47,471 bases of DNA from IMG/VR virus record IMGVR_UViG_3300025466_001800, positions 1-47,471 of that record, one strand, 5' to 3'. Source of the stretch: a virus. Position numbers and translations under genes: made by a program. Of this stretch, positions 1 to 47,065 are shown piece after piece (within the stretch, counting starts at the first letter, position 1; each line of letters begins with the position of its first letter). The notes under the pieces are model-generated. The model ran no database searches and was not told where the DNA came from. It saw only the letters and a list, made by a program, of their open reading frames with translations.

Positions 1-103
1 GTATTATATGATATATACCAAATGCAATATAACTAACTACTATAATTGAGCTAACAGCTATAAGCGCATATACAAAATTACGAAACGTAAAGATCCTATT
101 CAT
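1..103 (-). CDS. Partial membrane protein, N-terminus only (runs off window start)
   Basis: An open reading frame begins with ATG at 103 and stays open to base 1 (34 codons seen). The visible part, MNRIFTFRNF followed by a hydrophobic stretch through about residue 33, reads as an uncleaved signal anchor or first transmembrane helix. The gene diverges from the adenylate cyclase at 150, with only 46 bases between the two starts, so they may share a regulatory region. No family can be assigned from 34 residues. It could be a sensor, a transporter or an unrelated small membrane protein. Confidence 0.55.
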   Translation of the reverse strand, partial: MNRIFTFRNFVYALIAVSSIIVVSYIAFGIYHII

Positions 104-149
104 ACAAGTATTATCGGGTGTTCTATATAAAAATCAACTAAATAAGTTA

Positions 150-2207
150 ATGAAGCACACGTACAAAATACTGCTCACTGGGTTTGCTATCCTCGCTGGT
201 TTAGTTGTATTAAGAATAAAAGATCCGTTTTTTATTGAAACGGCCCGGTTAAAAGGAGTAGATTACTATCAAAGGCAACAAAGTAAAGTAAAAAGTAATA
301 ATATTGTTGTAGTAACCATAGACGAGGCGTCGTTAGACAGGTTTGGCCAGTTCCCCTGGTCCAGAGCAATATTAAGCGAAGGTTTGGAAAAAGCATTTAA
401 TAGTGGTGCGCAAGTTGTAGTTATGCCTATTCTATTTTCTGAAAAAGATAGATTAGGTGGTGATACTATATTTAATATGACTTTACAAAAATATCCAGTC
501 ATAACTGCACAATCAGCTTCCCAAAAAGGTAAGGGTCAACCAGTACCACGAGGCTTAGCTACAATAGGTGATGGGTTAGGAGATTGGTTGTTTACGTATC
601 CTGCTGCTATTGGTCCTACTAAAGAAATAGGGCAATCATCTGCTGGTGTTGGTATGTTACTGACTACACCTGAACTCGATGCTGTTACCAGACGTTTACC
701 TTTAGTGGTTAAAGTAAAGGGAGAGGTATACCCTACTATACCTTTAGAAGCATTGCGTATATTTGGTGGTGAAGAGTCTTATCAAGCTAAAGTAGATGAA
801 GCAGGAGTACAAGCTATTAGAGTTAAAGGTACCCCGCCTATTACTACTGATGCTAATGGTAGAGTGTGGATAAACTTTAAATACGACTTCGATACAGTAT
901 CTTATGCAGATGCTAATTGGTCTATCTGTAAAGATAAAATAGTGTTTATTGCATTAACTGCAGAAGGCCTAAATAATACTGTAGCTACACCTGTTGGTAT
1001 TTCACAAGGATACGAGATATCTGCTCAAACCTTGCAAATGTTAATAGATAATAGCAGATTACAAAGACCTTCAACCTTCGACTTATATGAGCTTACAGGT
1101 GGTATTATACTTGCTATTATTCTTATTGTTGCTGCTTGTTATTTGGGGTATATCCTAAACGGTTTACTAATCACAGCATTCTTATGTGTACCTTATTTTA
1201 TTGGATTACGCTTATTTGCTAATTACGGATATCTTACGGATTATACGTGGCCTACTTTAGCGGTATTGTTACCCTGGGTAGGTGCTATATTCTTTAGATT
1301 CGTAATGGAGTTTAAGTTAAAGCAGCAGATCAAGAAGCAATTCGGTACCTATCTATCACCAGCAATGGTTGAGAAGTTGCAAGAGAATCCAGACTTATTG
1401 AGGTTAGGTGGTGATAGTAGAGAGTTATCTATTATGTTTACTGACGTGAGAGGCTTTACTACTATATCAGAGCATTATGGTAAAGACGTACAAGGACTAA
1501 CAAAGATAATGAACCGGTATATGACTGCTATGACTAAGGCTATATTAGATAATAATGGTACGTTAGACAAGTATATAGGTGACGCACAAATGGCCTTTTG
1601 GAATGCACCATTAGATGATAAAGAGCATGCATTAAATGCATTGAAAACAGCAATGATAATGTTAAATAATTTAGATGAGTTTAATAAAGAAATTGCTCAA
1701 GAAGGTGTCCCAGCCTTTGGTATGGGTCTTGGAATCAACACAGATACTGTTGTTGTTGGTAATATGGGCAGTACTCAGCGTTTCGATTACACTTGCTTGG
1801 GCGATGGAGTTAATCTGGCCTCGAGGTTAGAAGGACAATCTAAACCTTATGGTGTAAAGATAGTAATAGGTCCTAAGACCTACGAATACGTTAAAGACAA
1901 ATACAAGTGCTTTGAATTAGATTGTATTGCTGTTAAAGGTAAAAAGGAAGGTGTAAAGATATATACTGTTGTACAGAATAACTTTATTACAATGGAGAAA
2001 CCTTATGTAGGGCAAATACATAACGGGTTCTTATCTGATTACAGAGTACAAAATTGGGATAATGCTATACAATTAGCTAAATCGCTAACAACTTATAATC
2101 CAGAATTAGCTCACTATTATGAAAATATGATAGAAAGAATTAATGAACTTAGAAACGCCAACTTACCAGCTGATTGGGATGGAGTGTTTAGAGCCACTTC
2201 GAAGTAA
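150..2207 (+). CDS. CHASE2-domain transmembrane class III adenylate cyclase
   Basis: Predicted to convert ATP to cyclic AMP at the inner membrane. The order is: a signal anchor (about residues 7-22), a CHASE2 extracellular sensor (about 30-305, with IVVVTIDEASLDRFGQFPW typical of the family), three transmembrane helices (about 314-336, 338-356, 366-384), a short coupling helix, and a cyclase domain (about 425-608). Catalytic features are all present: metal-binding Asp432 (FTDVRGF) and Asp478 (KYIGDAQ), adenine-selecting Lys474 and Asp546 (RFDYT), and the transition-state pair Asn555/Arg559 (GDGVNLASR). The family is widespread in bacteria but not a usual phage gene. The ATG is preceded by TAAATAAGTTA with no SD. 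The stop directly abuts the stop of the halogenase on the other strand. Family call is confident; nucleotide specificity is inferred from residues. Confidence 0.95.
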   Translation: MKHTYKILLTGFAILAGLVVLRIKDPFFIETARLKGVDYYQRQQSKVKSNNIVVVTIDEASLDRFGQFPWSRAILSEGLEKAFNSGAQVVVMPILFSEKDRLGGDTIFNMTLQKYPVITAQSASQKGKGQPVPRGLATIGDGLGDWLFTYPAAIGPTKEIGQSSAGVGMLLTTPELDAVTRRLPLVVKVKGEVYPTIPLEALRIFGGEESYQAKVDEAGVQAIRVKGTPPITTDANGRVWINFKYDFDTVSYADANWSICKDKIVFIALTAEGLNNTVATPVGISQGYEISAQTLQMLIDNSRLQRPSTFDLYELTGGIILAIILIVAACYLGYILNGLLITAFLCVPYFIGLRLFANYGYLTDYTWPTLAVLLPWVGAIFFRFVMEFKLKQQIKKQFGTYLSPAMVEKLQENPDLLRLGGDSRELSIMFTDVRGFTTISEHYGKDVQGLTKIMNRYMTAMTKAILDNNGTLDKYIGDAQMAFWNAPLDDKEHALNALKTAMIMLNNLDEFNKEIAQEGVPAFGMGLGINTDTVVVGNMGSTQRFDYTCLGDGVNLASRLEGQSKPYGVKIVIGPKTYEYVKDKYKCFELDCIAVKGKKEGVKIYTVVQNNFITMEKPYVGQIHNGFLSDYRVQNWDNAIQLAKSLTTYNPELAHYYENMIERINELRNANLPADWDGVFRATSK

Positions 2208-3719
2208 TTAAACGTTACCGAACACCCAGTCCTTAGTAAGTCCTTTATTAAAAATACTATTAGGTATTAAAGGACCTCTTACTGGATCGTTAATTAACAT
2301 TTCCCATGTAGGTATAGGCATTGATGCTACCTTTTCTACAGAACTTGGGTATAGCTTTTTATTGAGTAATTTCTGACCTTCAAATATCATTATCCATTGC
2401 TCCACACCAAAAGGTGGTACTTTCATCTCATTAACTAAAGGATCTAACTCTAAAGGTATCTTTTTATGTCTATTAATTAATTCAGTAATACTGTCAAGTA
2501 TTACATTATTCTTCTTAAAGTCTTTCCAGAATGTAGTGTCTTTTCTCTTTGTAAGGTAGTGTATTTGTATTGCTGGTAAAAAGCGGTTCACTACATCTAT
2601 ATAAAAGTTGTTCAATTCATCTTTGGGCTTCTGATCGTTTATATTAATGAAGATATTTTTAAACGTACTTCTTATACCTACATCCAGTAGCATAAGAGCT
2701 GCCCACAAAGAAGTAGCTTCTAATGGTTCTGCAAACCCAGTCGATAAACCTACAGCAATACAATTCTTTACACATACTTTATCGTATTGACCAGCTTCAA
2801 ATGTAAAGGCACGTGATACATTAATATCATGACCTAATAACTGCTCTACTTCTTCTTTAGCTTTATCAGCTGTTATATGATCTGAATCAAACACATAACC
2901 ACTGCCATAGCGTGATTGTAAAGGTATCTTCCACATCCACCCGTACTTCATAGCTATTGCAGCTGTTGAGTTATTGTAATTATTAGGATCTATTTTATGC
3001 TGGAAAGCAATAGCTTTTTTAGCGGGTAGGTGTTTAGCATAACTTAACCACTTTGTCTTATAGTAATCCCCTATAATCATTCTTTTAAACCCAGTACAAT
3101 CAAATAAGAAACTGGTCTCTACTTGTTGCCCACCTTCAAGTAATATCTTGTTAATATTACCGTTACCATCAGTCTTAAACGAGTTCACTTTACCTTCTAT
3201 TCGCATTACCCCACGGCTAATAGCTACTTCTTTTAAATAATTTGCTAATAATTCTGCATCGAAATGAAATGCATAAGGCATTATCATATCATATTTTTTA
3301 GTTTGAGTGTTAAAAGCAAATGGAGAGTTTTTAAGATTCTTATAAAAAAAGCATCCTTTCTTTATAGGTTGATTACTGTTAACACTCTCAAGCATTCTCT
3401 TGAGTAAATCTAATCTATTAGGATGAGAAAATGAATTTAAATAATCATCATTATCTCCATTCCAATTAATAAATTGTGTACCATATTTAAACGTAGCATT
3501 TGTTCTTTTATAGAACTCATGAAAATCTAAACCTAATACCTTAAACATATGAGAAGGAAAAAATGGAACTGTACCTTCTCCTGCACCAACAATACCTACG
3601 TCGTCACTCTCTATAACTACTATTTTATGGTCTGGTGGACCAATCTGTAGCATAGTTAACGCCGTTAACCATCCAGCGGTACCACCACCAATAACAGTTA
3701 TGTTTTTCTTTACGTCCAT
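2208..3719 (-). CDS. Flavin-dependent tryptophan halogenase family protein
   Basis: A FADH2-dependent halogenase-like enzyme that would chlorinate or brominate an indole or other aromatic substrate. Residues 8-17 hold the FAD-binding GGGTAGW motif, Lys78 (TFKYG) matches the catalytic lysine of PrnA-type enzymes, WMWKIP at 261-266 is the diagnostic WxWxIP motif that keeps the enzyme from acting as a monooxygenase, and Glu334 lies in EPLEATS, the region of the PrnA catalytic glutamate. In PrnA the following chloride-contacting positions are Ser and Gly; here they are Ala335 and Ser337, so substrate or halide handling may differ. The 503-aa length is normal. Related genes are known in T4-like cyanophages. 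It starts with ATG and has no SD. Native substrate unknown. Confidence 0.93.
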   Translation of the reverse strand: MDVKKNITVIGGGTAGWLTALTMLQIGPPDHKIVVIESDDVGIVGAGEGTVPFFPSHMFKVLGLDFHEFYKRTNATFKYGTQFINWNGDNDDYLNSFSHPNRLDLLKRMLESVNSNQPIKKGCFFYKNLKNSPFAFNTQTKKYDMIMPYAFHFDAELLANYLKEVAISRGVMRIEGKVNSFKTDGNGNINKILLEGGQQVETSFLFDCTGFKRMIIGDYYKTKWLSYAKHLPAKKAIAFQHKIDPNNYNNSTAAIAMKYGWMWKIPLQSRYGSGYVFDSDHITADKAKEEVEQLLGHDINVSRAFTFEAGQYDKVCVKNCIAVGLSTGFAEPLEATSLWAALMLLDVGIRSTFKNIFININDQKPKDELNNFYIDVVNRFLPAIQIHYLTKRKDTTFWKDFKKNNVILDSITELINRHKKIPLELDPLVNEMKVPPFGVEQWIMIFEGQKLLNKKLYPSSVEKVASMPIPTWEMLINDPVRGPLIPNSIFNKGLTKDWVFGNV

Positions 3720-3754
3720 TTAAATAATTAAACAGACGTATTTGTTAATCAACC

Positions 3755-4189
3755 TTACGTTTTTTGATCGTAAAACTGCTTTGTATCAGCACAACCATGT
3801 ACAAAGTAACCTTGATGATAAAATATAGACTTGAAACTATATCCAGAGGCAGTAGCTGATGTAATTGCACTATCAATATCTGCTTTATTAGCGTCAGTGT
3901 TACCAAGATACGCCCACCCTAAAGTTTGACACTCAGTACCATTTACTGGTATACCTACAAAGCTATTAACTTCATTTGTTAAGAATGTAGTGTCATCTGC
4001 AGTAGGGGTTGTTGACCCAGTAATACCAGTTATATTAATAACAATACCGGATGATATTACATCTCGAGTAAACGTTACATTAAAATAGCTTTCAGGAGTG
4101 CTTGCATCTGAGCGCAATGAGTTGTAGTGATAAAGATTACCACCATCTGCGTAATAAGGTTCTAAGAGGTTGTGTGAATGTGCGTCCAT
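3755..4189 (-). CDS. Hypothetical protein (144 aa)
   Basis: Not recognised. A soluble-looking, Ser/Thr-rich protein with N-terminal MDAHSHNLLEPYYADGG and a Tyr/His-rich C-terminal third (SIFYHQGYFVHG). No signal peptide or membrane segment. It lies 5 bases downstream of the next gene's stop in a tight leftward series (4593, 4189), so it is probably cotranscribed. Its composition resembles small virion or fiber-accessory proteins, but that is only an impression. Confidence 0.7.
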   Translation of the reverse strand: MDAHSHNLLEPYYADGGNLYHYNSLRSDASTPESYFNVTFTRDVISSGIVINITGITGSTTPTADDTTFLTNEVNSFVGIPVNGTECQTLGWAYLGNTDANKADIDSAITSATASGYSFKSIFYHQGYFVHGCADTKQFYDQKT

Positions 4190-16155: not shown

Positions 16156-16608
16156 TTATTTACTGGTTAAAACTTGAAATGTATCGGGATTACTCGAGGG
16201 CCAGATATACTGTAAGTCTTCTGGTGTATCCGGAAATTGTTGTTTATAATAGTCTGGATATTTCTGTATTAGCATTGATTGATGTGTTAAGTGTACATCT
16301 AACATACCTAACCACCAAGGATACGTTGTAGGTTTGGATATATCGTAGTATGCACCTATTTTCTCATAACATGTATCCTTATAACCACGTTCTTTCCATA
16401 CTTCACAAACAGTCATACCATACTCAGCTAAAGCGTTCTCATGTCCACGCCACATTTCCCGGCAAGGGTGGTTCTTCCAACCTTTATAATCAGGTTTATG
16501 AAACGAGTTAAGAAGTTGTAATACTTCAACACGCTGCTTACCGAGTCTTTTCATATCAAGACTTTTAGCAGATTCTCGAAAGTTAGCGAATGGTAGAAAT
16601 GTTTGCAC
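16156..16608 (-). CDS. Pyrimidine-dimer glycosylase/endonuclease-V-like protein (150 aa)
   Basis: It opens MQTFLPFANFRESAKSLD and continues with KRLGKQRVEVLQLL and HPCREMWRGHENALAEYG, the pattern of an actinobacterial and phage family related to T4 endonuclease V (Pyr_excise), which removes UV dimers from DNA. The invariant-looking R-L-G-K-Q-R and N-H-P segments are intact, and the 150-aa length is full size. It starts with GTG and is divergent from the glycosyltransferase at 16630 with 21 bases between them. Repair activity is inferred from family similarity, not from identified catalytic residues. Confidence 0.7.
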   Translation of the reverse strand: MQTFLPFANFRESAKSLDMKRLGKQRVEVLQLLNSFHKPDYKGWKNHPCREMWRGHENALAEYGMTVCEVWKERGYKDTCYEKIGAYYDISKPTTYPWWLGMLDVHLTHQSMLIQKYPDYYKQQFPDTPEDLQYIWPSSNPDTFQVLTSK

Positions 16609-31650: not shown

Positions 31651-33834
31651 TTAAGTTACACCTGGTCCAGATATCACAAATGTATTACCACCTACACATA
31701 GCACTGTACATATACCGTATTGTGCTAATGTACGATTACCTGTACTTGAAGTACCTGCCCATCTTAAGGTAACAGATGTGCCTTGAGTAATAGTTTGATT
31801 ACTACCACTATTATTATATATAGTAATTACATTACCATCAGAGAATATACTTGCTGGTATAGTAACACCACCTGTAGTAATATTAATATATTTACCGTTA
31901 TCGGTAAGCTGTAGTGTGTAGCTTGTTGATTGACTGTTAGAAGGTATTGAGTTTGTACCGCTATAACCTGAAATACCAGAGCCGCTATAACCGCTTATAC
32001 CACTCCACCCACTAATACCGCTATAACCACTAATACCAGAATAACCAGAGTAACCGCTGATACCAGACCAACCAGAGATACCTGAGTAACCACTGATGCC
32101 GGAGTAACCGCTATAACCCGAAATACCGGAATAACCGCTTATACCACTATAACCTGAAATGCCGGAATAGCCACTATAACCAGAGATACCTGAGTAACCA
32201 CTTATACCAGAAAAACCAGATATACCGCTATAACCACTGTTACCAGAGTAACCTGAATAACCAGAAATGCCTGAATAGCCACTGATGCCGCTAAAGCCGC
32301 TGTTACCACTGAAGCCAGAATAGCCTGATATACCTGAAACACCTTGCCCTATAGGTGTACGTAATACCGTAAATACTGAACTACCATTATATTGATAAGC
32401 AGCTGTAACAGGAGAAACACTTGAAGTATATGCTGAAACTTGTAATAAAATACGATCTGTAGCAGATAGAGTTGTAATGTTACTTGTAACTGTAGCTAAT
32501 TTTTGATAAGTTGAAGTTGTATCTGAAACCGTACCAGAATCAGCACTTAATATAAACGTTCCAGTGCTACTGGTGGTCATTGAATACGTATATACACTGA
32601 ATACAAAATTAGCTGTACCACCTGTTACGTAACGATAAAATTCGACATCCCAAAGACCTGGGGGTATTTCTGTTAAACCAGGCTCTCCAATTGGTGTTAA
32701 ATACCAGCCGAAAGCTGTTAACCCCGTACTTGAAGTAATTGCTATATAATCGTCGTTAACTGTTGTTCCACCGCCACCTGGCTGTAAAGCCATTACTTCA
32801 TATGTGGAAGAGTTTTGATCGCTTGCTATTTCTTCTAAAAAGTATGTACGTCCGTATATTGAACCACCTGTTGTACCAGACCAACCTGAAATACCAGAAT
32901 AGCCTGATATACCACTATAACCTGAATACCCTGAAATACCTGAAGCTGCATAAGCACCTGGTATACCACTAAAGCCTGATATACCTGAGTAACCAGATGT
33001 ACCAGAATAACCAGAATAACCGCTTATACCACTATAACCTGAAATACCGCTATAACCACTAATACCAGAATAACCTGAAGTACCTGAAAAACCAGAATAA
33101 CCACTTATACCAGAATAACCAGAATGGCTACTATAGCCTGAATAACCTGAAATACCAGAGTACCCTGAAATACCAGAATAACCACTATAACCTGATGTAC
33201 CGGAATAACCAGAAATACCGGAATAACCTGAAATACCAGAGTAGCCGCTTGTTCCACTAAAACCACTAAAACCAGAGATACCAGAATAACCACTTATACC
33301 GGAGTAACCGGAAGTACTGTTACCGGAGTAACCGGAAGTACCTGAGTAACCGGAATAACCAGAGGTACCGGAATAGCCACTTATACCAGAATAGCCGGAA
33401 TAACCGCTAATGCCAGAATAACCTGAAATACCGCTAAAACCTGATATACCACTAAAACCAGAGATACCAGAATAACCAGAAGTACCGGTACCACTAAAAC
33501 CAGAGTAACCAGATACTCCGGAACCTGAATAACCAGACTTACCAGAGATACCCGAGTAACCAGAGATACCAGAAAAACCACTATAACCTGAACTTGCAGC
33601 CGCACCAGGTATACCACTATATCCCGAAGGACCGGTTGGACCAGAATAACCAGATTTACCAGAAGTACCAGACCAACCAGATATACCACTATAACCACTA
33701 TACCCACCTATACCTGCTGTACCAGAAAAACCAGAATAACCAGATGTATTGCCACTATAACCGCTCACGCCTGAATAACCGCTTGTGGTAGCGGTGTACA
33801 GCATGTTTGAATTAATTTTTATTAAAGAAGACAT
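31651..33834 (-). CDS. Collagen-like fiber protein (727 aa)
   Basis: Two long blocks of Gly-X-Ser triplets ([15 protein letters not shown]...) cover about residues 18-325 and 498-625. They should form a collagen-like triple helix in which most Y positions are serine. Between them is a globular beta domain (about 330-495, [20 protein letters not shown]) and at the end a 100-residue beta domain ([21 protein letters not shown]) of the type that trimerises phage fibers or binds receptors. It probably forms a trimeric tail fiber. It follows the 332-aa wedge-like gene by three bases. Confidence 0.88.
31960..32345. repeat. Collagen-like Gly-X-Ser coding repeat, block 2
   Basis: The second triplet array of the same gene, separated from block 1 by about 520 bases that code for a globular domain. 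Confidence 0.85.
32870..33785. repeat. Collagen-like Gly-X-Ser coding repeat, block 1
   Basis: A 9- and 18-base periodic array of CCAGAATAACC/CCACTTATACC-like units (minus strand: Gly-Tyr-Ser-Gly-Ile-Ser). Synonymous variation between units shows that the amino-acid pattern, not the DNA, is conserved. Confidence 0.85.
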
Positions 33835-44447: not shown

Positions 44448-44642
44448 TTATTGTTCTTTTCTAAAAAAATCAATAATTTTTTGGACATCATCACTACATT
44501 TACTACACCTGTCCGCACAATTACAATACTGTTGCAAGCCTTCTATAGAATTTATATCTTCGTGTTTATCAACAAGATGTATAATTTCTTTATACGAAAT
44601 ATTATTGCAAACACAGCGTGTATTATCTAACTCAAGCCCCAT
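44448..44642 (-). CDS. BFD-like [2Fe-2S] ferredoxin, coupled to nrdA (64 aa)
   Basis: A bacterioferritin-associated-ferredoxin-like domain. It has the CxC (Cys10, Cys12) and CxxC (Cys46, Cys49) ligands about 34 residues apart in a helix-rich setting (CVCNNISYKEIIHLV ; ADRCSKCSDDVQKII). Two extra cysteines (40 and 42) are unusual. The ATG at 44642 gives a TAATG overlap with the nrdA stop and is preferred to the TTG at 44654. Coupling to ribonucleotide reductase suggests it gives electrons or iron to the reductase system. This is inference; the family itself has diverse roles. Confidence 0.65.
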   Translation of the reverse strand: MGLELDNTRCVCNNISYKEIIHLVDKHEDINSIEGLQQYCNCADRCSKCSDDVQKIIDFFRKEQ

Positions 44643-46294
44643 TACGACTCGCAATTTGAACAGGTTAATATCGAACGAGCAAGTTCTTGAGCTGGATTAG
44701 CAGAGCGTTGATAGTAAAGACTCTTAATACCGTTCTCCCAAGCAAATACTATTAACTCGTTGACATCTTTTGGTTTAGTGTTAGGTGGAATCATTAGGTT
44801 TAATGATTGACCTTGATCAATATACTTTTGACGAGCTGCAGCTTGAATTACTATTTCTTTTTGGCTAATTTCGCCGAAAGTTTTGAATACAGCCTTTTCT
44901 TCTGGGGTGAGAAACTCTAAGTGTTGTACAGAACCACCTTTTACGAGAATGGACTTCCATACCCCCTCTGTATTCTTTTTCTTTGTTTCAAGTAAAGCTT
45001 CAAGATAAGGGTTCTTATACGTAAACTTACCTTTAGCTAAGTCTTTTACAAAGTAGTTAGAGTTGAGAGGCTCAACTGAAGGAGAAGCTTGACCGAGAAT
45101 AAACGAACTGGAGGTAGTAGGCGCTACAGCTAATGTAGTTACATTGCGGCGACCGTAACCTTTAAGTAAAGGTGGTTCACCATATTCTACAGCCATTTGA
45201 GCTGTAGCAGCATCTGCTTTCTTACGAACAAAACTCCATATTTGAGTATTAAGTAGCTTTGCTTCCATTGTTTCAAACCCAATCATCTTGGATTGAAGGT
45301 ATGTGTGCCAACCAAGAGCACCGATACCGAGCGCACGCTGATTAATAGCAAAGTTTCTTGGGTGTACCATGAACTTCATTTTCTCGGTCTTATTAATAAA
45401 CTCAGTCATTACAGCATCAAGGAAGTATACTAATGTTTCTACTGCATCGGTATTCTTCCAGTTGTCCCATTGCTCAAAGTTAAGAGAAGACAAATCACAA
45501 ACGAACGATTCTTCGTTATCGTTTGATAGCATAATCTCCGTACAGAGATTACTTTGGTTAATCTTAATGTTCTTGTCTTTATATACCTGTGGTGCTTGAT
45601 TATTAGCATTATCAGTAAAGAAGATATAAGGATAACCAGACTCGAAACGCTTTTTAATAACTAAACCCCAGATACGACGCTTTTCTTTATCACCATCAAG
45701 CATAGACTTCAACCATTCATCGGTTACACAAACACCGATAGAAAGATTTTGTATGTCGTCTCCATCACTTCTAATCTTTAAGAACTCTTCAATATCCTTA
45801 TGATCGATAGGTAGGTACGCAGCAAATGAACCTCTACGCACGTTACCTTGCGAAATATAATCAGTTAACGATTCAAATACAGTTAATTGATGATGTACAC
45901 CAGTAGATTCACCACCAGACGAGATTGGGGTACCACGTGCACGTATTTTACCAAAGTAAGCAGATGTACCACCGCCTGCTTTTGACATAGTACCTATTTC
46001 TGAAATCTTGTACAGAATGGCATCCATATCATCGTCAATGTATGAACCGAAGCACGAGATAGGTAAACCGCGATTACGACCGAAGTTTGACCAGATAGGA
46101 GAAGCTAAGGAATAAAAACCTTGGTGCATATAGCTTTCAAACTTATCTGCAAAACCTTTCAACTTAAGATAATCTTCAGCTGTCTCAGCTATATCTCTTA
46201 TACGCTTTTCGGCAGTTTCTCCGTCCAGGAGATAACCACGTTCAAGGAACTTGCGGGAGTCGCTATTCAGCCAGTAAATGTTCTTGTTACTCAT
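44642..46294 (-). CDS. nrdA: Ribonucleoside-diphosphate reductase alpha subunit, compact form (550 aa)
   Basis: It reduces ribonucleotides to deoxyribonucleotides with NrdB. Active-site features: redox Cys81 (LPISCFGS) and Cys266 (CDLSSLN), the N-x-C-x-E catalytic set Asn249/Cys251/Glu253 (SNLCTEI), the radical-relay tyrosines in SLYYQR, and C-terminal shuttle cysteines Cys545/Cys548 (LTCSNCES). At 550 aa it is much shorter than E. coli NrdA. The first redox cysteine is at 81 rather than 225, so the N-terminal ATP-cone is missing. Loss of the cone should remove dATP feedback inhibition, useful for a phage. Three tandem TATAAACAC repeats precede it. Confidence 0.96.
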   Translation of the reverse strand: MSNKNIYWLNSDSRKFLERGYLLDGETAEKRIRDIAETAEDYLKLKGFADKFESYMHQGFYSLASPIWSNFGRNRGLPISCFGSYIDDDMDAILYKISEIGTMSKAGGGTSAYFGKIRARGTPISSGGESTGVHHQLTVFESLTDYISQGNVRRGSFAAYLPIDHKDIEEFLKIRSDGDDIQNLSIGVCVTDEWLKSMLDGDKEKRRIWGLVIKKRFESGYPYIFFTDNANNQAPQVYKDKNIKINQSNLCTEIMLSNDNEESFVCDLSSLNFEQWDNWKNTDAVETLVYFLDAVMTEFINKTEKMKFMVHPRNFAINQRALGIGALGWHTYLQSKMIGFETMEAKLLNTQIWSFVRKKADAATAQMAVEYGEPPLLKGYGRRNVTTLAVAPTTSSSFILGQASPSVEPLNSNYFVKDLAKGKFTYKNPYLEALLETKKKNTEGVWKSILVKGGSVQHLEFLTPEEKAVFKTFGEISQKEIVIQAAARQKYIDQGQSLNLMIPPNTKPKDVNELIVFAWENGIKSLYYQRSANPAQELARSILTCSNCES

Positions 46295-46300
46295 AGTTAT

Positions 46301-46327
46301 AGTGTTTATAGTGTTTATAGTGTTTAT
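46301..46327 (-). repeat. Three tandem TATAAACAC-type 9-mers upstream of nrdA
   Basis: On the plus strand AGTGTTTAT is repeated exactly three times and continues as ATTAT. Read on the minus strand this is TATAAACACTATAAACACTATAAACAC, just before ATAACT and the nrdA ATG. Each unit is one base off the T4 late TATAAATA core, so it may be a promoter array, a binding-site array or slippage. Confidence 0.75.
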
Positions 46328-46342
46328 ATTATATTATTTTTG

Positions 46343-47065
46343 TTAATTTTCAAGAAATAGCTTCGCTTCTTTTCGTTTTTGCCAAGCTAATCTCAACTTT
46401 TCTCTTGTTGCTTCATTATGTTTTTTGCCAAACATACCGTTATTAGCTCCCTTGCTTTTTTCTCTATGCTTCTGTCTTGTTTCTTCACTTATAGGGTTCA
46501 ATTTATGCACTTCTTTCATTTTTTCAGAGTGCTTTCTTCTATTCTCTTCATTCCACCAAGTGGCGTTATGTTGCTTTATGCGTTCAATCTGTTCCGCTGT
46601 ATGCCAGGACGTGTATCGGCTTTTACGCGTTGCAACCATTTTATTGTAAACATCTTTACTTCTTGTTCTCTTTTCCTGATTTTGCTTTTCAACAGTTTCT
46701 TGCGATTTCGGCTTTCTCATTTTTAGCTTTGTATGTTCAGACAGCTTATACCCTCCCTTATTAACAAAGTTCTTTCCTCCATTATGTCTGTTATAAAACA
46801 TTGGATGCTCAGCCGCATTTACTTTTGTCAAGAATTTCATTTCGTATGTCAAAGCTTCTTCTGGTGTTGTAAAGTGTTTTATTCTAATTATTTCAAATGC
46901 ACTCAGTCCATCTTTTTGAATTAATCTCTTAATAATATCAGATGTTGTCTGGTATCCCTTTTCAGTCATAAAATTAAAAGAATTAGCTTTTGAGTTTATC
47001 TTACATCCTGCATAATACTTTTGTGTGGGTATATGTCTTATTATATAAAAATATGGTTTTCTCAT
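46343..47065 (-). CDS. GIY-YIG homing endonuclease between nrdB and nrdA (240 aa)
   Basis: A mobile endonuclease. The N-terminal domain begins MRKPYFYIIRHIPTQKYYAGC (GIY and YIG strands as YFYII and YYAGC), with the glutamate helix EEALTYEMKFL and a closing FYNRHNGGKN. The C-terminal half carries NUMOD3-type DNA-binding repeats (SEHTKLKMRKP; SEETRQKHREKSKGANNGMFG; NEATREKLRLAW). It lies between the two ribonucleotide reductase genes in the same direction, the typical site for free-standing endonucleases that target conserved replication genes. Forty bases separate it from each neighbour. Confidence 0.88.
   Translation of the reverse strand: MRKPYFYIIRHIPTQKYYAGCKINSKANSFNFMTEKGYQTTSDIIKRLIQKDGLSAFEIIRIKHFTTPEEALTYEMKFLTKVNAAEHPMFYNRHNGGKNFVNKGGYKLSEHTKLKMRKPKSQETVEKQNQEKRTRSKDVYNKMVATRKSRYTSWHTAEQIERIKQHNATWWNEENRRKHSEKMKEVHKLNPISEETRQKHREKSKGANNGMFGKKHNEATREKLRLAWQKRKEAKLFLEN

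Follow-up and report, generated by a model that had tools for sequence, protein, structure and literature searches.

The window analysed here (an IMG/VR contig of 47,471 bp, class 'linear') encodes a complete CHASE2 cyclase of a T4-like phage, membrane-bound by prediction and probably active. The gene lies at 150-2207 on the plus strand and is a further member of a phage cassette family that has already been described, from a separate clade. On balance, we think it probable that this cyclase is the terminal regulatory gene of a phage curli module. A FecR-domain protein and the CHASE2 domain would sense the state of the envelope or of fibre secretion, and cAMP would act on a receptor of the phage or of the host.

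The open reading frame runs unbroken from ATG to stop over 685 codons. Its product carries a CHASE2 domain (PF05226, residues 18-325, E 2.9e-40) N-terminal to a class III cyclase domain (Guanylate_cyc PF00211, residues 425-607, E 1.7e-19), both above the Pfam gathering cut-off. This domain order defines the CHASE2-type class III nucleotide cyclases. The full CHASE2 sensor claimed in the first-pass annotation is thus present. The PHROG phage family phrog_35576 spans the protein end to end (8-685 on 9-681 of 681, E 3.5e-213), a match far above chance, which also means that the family was already known from phages. The features of the gene and its leader are the following, in window coordinates:

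1..104, minus strand: start of a small membrane-protein gene (about 34 codons), cut by the contig end (translation; counterpart in the related contig L002)
121..149, plus strand: conserved leader TTCTATATAAAAATCAACTAAATAARTTA just before the ATG (also in the related contigs L002 and L005)
150..2207, plus strand: CHASE2 - class III nucleotide cyclase, 685 aa, complete (open reading frame, PHROG, Pfam, alignment, conservation)
153..221, plus strand: first transmembrane helix, residues 2-24 (AlphaFold2 helix 2-24; hydropathy peak 5-23)
201..1124, plus strand: CHASE2 sensor domain, predicted periplasmic, residues 18-325, the ends including membrane helix (PF05226; model pLDDT mostly 82-95)
1074..1343, plus strand: three further membrane helices leading into a signalling helix, residues 309-331, 334-359 and 366-398 (AlphaFold2; hydropathy peaks)
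1422..1970, plus strand: class III cyclase domain, residues 425-607, with D432, K474, D478, T548, N555 and R559 (PF00211; alignment to CyaC, CyaB and Cya2; invariance; omega 0.01-0.09)
1980..2204, plus strand: helical C-terminal tail, residues 611-685, with a conserved W(D/N)GVxxATSK-type motif at its end (common to cellular relatives)

Alignment to CyaC, CyaB and Cya2 identifies Asp432, Lys474, Asp478, Asn555 and Arg559 as the catalytic positions and Thr548 as the second base-contact position. The metal-binding aspartates 432 and 478, together with Asn555 and Arg559, line up with their counterparts in CyaC and CyaB. All cyclase residues named at first sight therefore stand except Asp546, whose place the alignment gives to Thr548. 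Class III cyclases with Lys and Thr, Asp or Ser at the two base-contact positions are of the adenylate type. The pair Lys474/Thr548 follows this rule and not the guanylate one, and cAMP is the predicted product.

AlphaFold2 predicts four transmembrane helices, one before CHASE2 and three after it, the number needed to put CHASE2 in the periplasm and the cyclase in the cytoplasm. Three helices had been counted initially; a plain hydropathy scan likewise gives three peaks, with two helices merged into one. The input alignment of the model left out two rows from annotated database records. The cyclase domain is poorly modelled (pLDDT often under 50), and the fold comparison of the model found a known cyclase domain only and no CHASE2 structure. 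A complete membrane cyclase of this kind could in principle increase the level of a cyclic nucleotide and signal the state of the envelope, as had been suggested.

The contig itself is viral, in agreement with the first impression of a T4-like phage. It carries genes for baseplate wedge subunits, collagen-like tail fibres, a gp44 clamp loader, ribonucleotide reductase and a homing endonuclease. The GC content of the cyclase gene (36.7%) and its GC3 (27%) match the surroundings (36.3%; GC3 22-33% in six other genes). An assembly chimera, which the first-pass annotation named as a refutation, is not borne out at the cyclase gene, because L003, an independent contig assembled from a different metagenome, matches window positions 106-4189, across the junction between the cyclase and the adjacent halogenase gene (79.5% identity), and L002 covers window positions 1-2207 (85.7% identity; L002 5852-8055).

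Several other genes of the window deserve a short description. The tryptophan halogenase-like gene at 2208-3719 on the minus strand lies tail to tail with the cyclase and has relatives in HTVC008M and cyanophages. A ribonucleotide reductase large-subunit gene (44642-47065, minus strand, 550 aa) stands beside the homing-endonuclease-like gene. A collagen-repeat tail fibre is encoded at 31651-33834 on the minus strand, within the part of the window that is richest in GC (about 39-44%, near 27-33 kb). The gene at 16156-16608 (minus strand) encodes a pyrimidine dimer DNA glycosylase (PF03013), comparable to denV-type repair in T4. No RNA element was found with Rfam in the window or in L002.

The left end of the contig lies only 149 bp upstream of the cyclase ATG. 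For this reason, the curli and FecR context of the gene was hidden from the first-pass annotation. The small opposite-strand membrane-protein gene that is cut by the contig end is complete in L002 (5721-5954, minus strand), where it lies between FecR and the cyclase. The leader TTCTATATAAAAATCAACTAAATAARTTA is possibly a promoter or leader element; its motif TATATAAAAATC, with one mismatch allowed, is not more frequent in the window than expected by chance. L004 and L003 have other inserts directly upstream of the cyclase. The insert in L003 (184-1560, minus strand) codes for 458 aa; its N-terminus looks like an export signal, and on visual inspection the product resembles a secreted peptidase of the serine (sedolisin-like) type. 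On either side of this gene L003 matches the window by BLAST, and the two matches both include some 35 leader bases (window 106-140).

In relatives, the cyclase is the final gene of a curli (type VIII secretion, T8SS) cassette with the order csgF-csgG-curlin-FecR-(curlin)-cyclase. Among the matches listed, 48 viral loci extend at least 4 kb upstream, and 46 of these have CsgF, CsgG, curlin and FecR all ahead of the cyclase. In 53 of 68 viral loci, again among the matches listed, the first 4 bp of the cyclase gene are also the last 4 bp of the FecR gene. The same order is annotated in the cultured phages Melnitz and HTVC008M, and the whole cassette precedes the cyclase in L002 and L004, the closest long relatives of the window. 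Curli genes and a cyclic-nucleotide (cNMP) receptor are absent from the window itself; we infer both from the relatives. The 149-bp leader of the window aligns to L002, which has the entire cassette upstream, and the window's own csg and FecR genes most likely lay beyond the left edge of the contig. In the clade of the window, the small opposite-strand gene parts FecR from the cyclase, so that the 4-bp coupling does not apply there.

In the FecR protein of L002, the one domain recognised is PF04773, which follows a hydrophobic N-terminal stretch resembling an export signal. A cytoplasmic anti-sigma region, as in FecI/FecR iron signalling, was not found in this protein. Hence, nothing points to a sigma-factor role of the iron type.

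Many aquatic phages carry curli modules, for which the published proposals range from host aggregation through nutrient uptake to lysis timing. The cassette was reported in 2020 (PMC7029224), and FecR and the adenylate cyclase (AC) of the T8SS module are described in a 2022 paper (PMC9599517). Relatives of the cyclase occur in at least 591 stretches of IMG/VR, the best 80 of which are full-length or cut only by contig ends. Together with the annotation in HTVC008M and Melnitz, this number makes the cyclase a common gene in an aquatic T4-like lineage. The opinion that it is not a usual phage gene has to be given up, given these counts, phrog_35576 and the published AC. The module is probably facultative in the lineage. 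In a control set of 17 contigs over 20 kb, chosen by the clamp loader of the window and not by the cyclase, one contig has CHASE2 (cut at the contig end), and neither the cNMP protein described below nor CsgG was found in any of the 17, most of which are fragments. IMG/VR contigs are often fragments in general, and absences from them are therefore weak.

The viral copies have kept their catalytic residues. Among the matches listed, D432, K474, D478 and R559 are each present in all 89 viral copies, N555 in 86 and T548 in 84. In the cyclase of Melnitz (L082 9932-11983), Ser stands in place of Asn555 and Asp in place of Thr548. Some copies may thus be weakened, and the activity of the Melnitz enzyme may differ. 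By the Nei-Gojobori method, omega is about 0.01-0.09 in the cyclase domain and 0.04-0.19 in CHASE2, which is strong purifying selection. On average, two full viral copies are 78% identical over the cyclase domain and 57% over CHASE2. In steps of 50 codons, identity between the window and L002 is 89-99% as far as about codon 400 and drops to 65-80% beyond; with L005 it is 57-80% as far as about codon 300 and rises to 81-97% beyond. The sensor and catalytic halves appear to differ in history, a pattern that recombinational swapping of sensor halves would give. Conservation, omega and the separate halves support selection for activity with adaptable sensing, as far as can be read from sequence comparison.

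A CHASE2-cyclase tree, the check proposed by the first-pass annotation, places the phage copies on one side, away from the sampled cellular ones. In this tree of 29 phage and 80 cellular sequences, the phage copies form one clade (100% SH-aLRT) set apart by long branches, and the rows closest to the window are phage contigs; the window cyclase is 88% identical to that of an uncultivated phage. The cellular sequences were picked by similarity, and thus the tree gives the distance from those relatives and not the exact donor. They were retrieved with an alignment query; a single-protein query of genome contigs found none. Among the matches listed, cellular proteins reach at most 38% identity and nearly all come from Alphaproteobacteria, which agrees with the alphaproteobacterial origin reported in PMC9599517. 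The suspicion of a transferred host regulator does not hold for any recent transfer: a recent host contaminant is rejected by the single phage clade and by the contiguity with L002 and L003. We also rejected a cyanobacterial origin, because the nearest cellular matches listed are nearly all alphaproteobacterial. Matches labelled Acinetobacter phage MD-2021a were rejected as phage cyclases because the records carry housekeeping genes (mfd, isc operon); GenBank CAKLQH020000011.1 (L084), under this label, looks like a bacterial chromosome.

The cellular relatives point to secretion. Among the matches listed, 67 cellular relatives have enough flanking sequence; 28 of these have a FecR-domain gene nearby, 18 an HlyD gene and 42 one or the other kind of secretion gene. 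One cellular FecR-domain protein that we examined is 2,452 aa long and also contains domains like those of laminin G and cadherin. In five marine alphaproteobacterial loci (L110 2753-4477, L112, L114, L115 and L144), an HlyD protein with its own N-terminal cNMP-binding domain is encoded directly before the CHASE2 cyclase, and a small further cNMP-binding gene follows directly after it. Such loci are possible candidates for a type I secretion operon controlled by a cyclic nucleotide. Published systems run parallel to these neighbourhoods. A FecR-domain outer-membrane protein is clustered with CHASE2 cyclases in Campylobacterota (PMC9239204), FecR and a CHASE2 kinase share a biofilm operon (PMC5192318), and in Sinorhizobium meliloti the outer-membrane protein NsrA signals to CHASE2 cyclases (PMC13001267). 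Because of the FecR and HlyD neighbours and these parallels, we consider sensing of the envelope or of secretion more likely than general catabolite control.

A candidate phage receptor for the cyclic nucleotide exists in some relatives. L002 encodes a 213-aa protein (1712-2353, minus strand) with a cNMP-binding domain (PF00027, E 4.6e-21) and hydrophobic C-terminal helices, divergently beside csgF. Proteins of this kind are divergent from csgF also in seven loci (L177, L178, L180, L181, L182, L183 and L199). At most about half of the residues differ between the csgF-adjacent proteins, and the binding-loop residues G-E-G-A-L...P-R-N-A are conserved. Only the N-terminal domain is well modelled, and fold comparison matches it to the cAMP- and cGMP-binding domains of CRP, PKG and an M. 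loti channel (E about 1e-12 to 1e-10). A profile scan found the protein in 27 viral contigs; the final HMM for this protein was built from 21 viral sequences only. Twelve of the 27 contigs also have CHASE2, and one further contig has CsgG and ends before the cyclase would be reached. G044 (185 kb) has the protein without CHASE2 or CsgG. Conversely, the protein is missing from 26 of the 32 cyclase-positive contigs examined, and it was not found in the long cyclase-positive contigs G013, G027 and G029, in Melnitz or in HTVC008M. Hence, its linkage to the cassette is real but optional. A description of a csgF-adjacent cNMP protein was not found in the open-access literature. As far as our searches of this literature reach, the protein beside csgF, the cellular cNMP-HlyD neighbours and the separately recombining halves of the cyclase are new.

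To explain these associations, we propose that the cyclase reports on the curli module. During infection, CsgG and CsgF, curlin-repeat fibre proteins and an exported FecR-domain protein would be made; the gene content comes from the relatives and expression is presumed. FecR, or a secretion state mirrored by FecR, would then contact the periplasmic CHASE2 domain. The 4-bp overlap in most phages, the cellular FecR-cyclase pairs and the NsrA-to-CHASE2 precedent suggest this contact. Through the membrane helices and then along the conserved signalling helix, the signal would reach a class III catalytic dimer, which is predicted to make cAMP. Where the clade has a cNMP-binding membrane protein beside csgF, cAMP may act on it; elsewhere a host cAMP receptor may take this place. 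In this way, the status of envelope and fibre secretion could feed back on secretion or on host surface physiology instead of general catabolite control.

In some phages the circuit may even be self-contained. The FecR-CHASE2 cyclase and the phage's own cNMP-binding membrane protein would gate or report fibre secretion or the state of the host membrane without host regulators. The fusion of a type I secretion adaptor (HlyD) to a cNMP-binding domain next to the same kind of cyclase is the cellular parallel. We put this forward tentatively, as a possibility that we would not bet on.

Alternatively, cAMP may act mainly on a CRP-type regulator of the host and redirect transcription (catabolite control, surface genes), with the curli module as a target or a fellow traveller. 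A host receptor would indeed be needed in the five contigs and phages named above in which the cNMP-binding gene was not found, and CHASE2 cyclases of S. meliloti work through the CRP-family regulator Clr (PMC13001267). Against this alternative stands the close and ancient association with FecR and secretion genes, in phages as well as in cells. We consider the alternative rather unlikely, though it deserves to be kept in mind.

An improbable alternative is superinfection exclusion similar to Pycsar. The cyclase would respond to a damaged envelope or to a further infection, with the cNMP-binding membrane protein as its membrane effector. A cyclase and a cNMP-binding membrane protein, found together in some relatives and not in the window itself, are a Pycsar-type pairing, and in PADLOC the PycC models match the cyclase domain and the Pycsar TIR-effector models the cNMP domain. 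Yet these matches are confined to the shared domains. PycC similarity is limited to residues about 387-619, and the csgF-side protein matches only the cNMP part of the effector models, with no TM-effector or TIR part. The Lys/Thr base-contact residues are of the adenylate type, the cyclase is linked to curli, and the 26 cyclase-positive contigs without the membrane protein would lack the effector. The initial idea of interference with Pycsar or CBASS thus finds no support.

Still less credible is counter-defence, in which cAMP would flood, or compete for, the receptors of host cyclic-nucleotide defence. Its one argument is that the product would be a cyclic nucleotide; but no defence-linked neighbour was found, flooding needs no large periplasmic sensor, and the same type of gene sits in cellular secretion operons. 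That the gene is a passenger from a host, a host gene in decay or a product of misassembly could be suspected from the position at the contig end and the changed Asn555 in copies such as that of Melnitz, but is already refuted for the family by intact full-length viral copies among those examined, an omega well below 1, a junction recovered in an independent contig and one deep phage clade.

The cyclase is a clear regulatory handle on the function of phage curli modules. If our proposal is confirmed, a virus would encode a complete second-messenger circuit. The conserved residues for catalysis, the secretion-gene partners in cells and the candidate phage cNMP receptor make regulation of the module directly testable.

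Among the closest known systems is the T8SS AC of pelagiphages. The window cyclase is 42% identical to that of Melnitz (QZI94833.1) over 96% of the query and 41% identical to that of HTVC008M (AGE60353.1) over 87% of the query. The pelagiphage AC of PMC9599517 likewise comes last, after csgF-csgG-curlin-FecR-(curlin2), in T4-like phages of small aquatic proteobacteria; the word CHASE2 is absent from that paper, and no cNMP-binding partner was seen in its accessible part. The window differs from the pelagiphages in belonging to another clade and in the small opposite-strand gene between FecR and cyclase.

Pycsar shares the class III cyclase and, in some relatives of the window, the cNMP-binding membrane protein. 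In contrast to Pycsar, the phage cyclase has a large periplasmic sensor, residues of the adenylate type and a linkage to curli, with no recognisable TIR or TM effector part; its residues predict adenine instead of a pyrimidine product.

The alphaproteobacterial CHASE2 adenylate cyclases (Bradyrhizobium and others) have the same domain order, the same catalytic residues and a similar C-terminal tail motif, and CyaD1, CyaD2 and CyaK of S. meliloti are functional relatives among them. Among the matches listed, the second base residue is mostly Ser in cells (74 of 80) and Thr in phages (84 of 89). The sampled cellular cyclases adjoin type I secretion genes or large FecR-domain proteins and not curli. 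Finally, the FecR-LysM/CHASE2 histidine-kinase operon of Burkholderia (PMC5192318), which has a role in biofilms, shares with the phage module an exported FecR protein next to a CHASE2 sensor with 1+3 helices; its output domain is a histidine kinase, whereas that of the phage protein is a cyclase.
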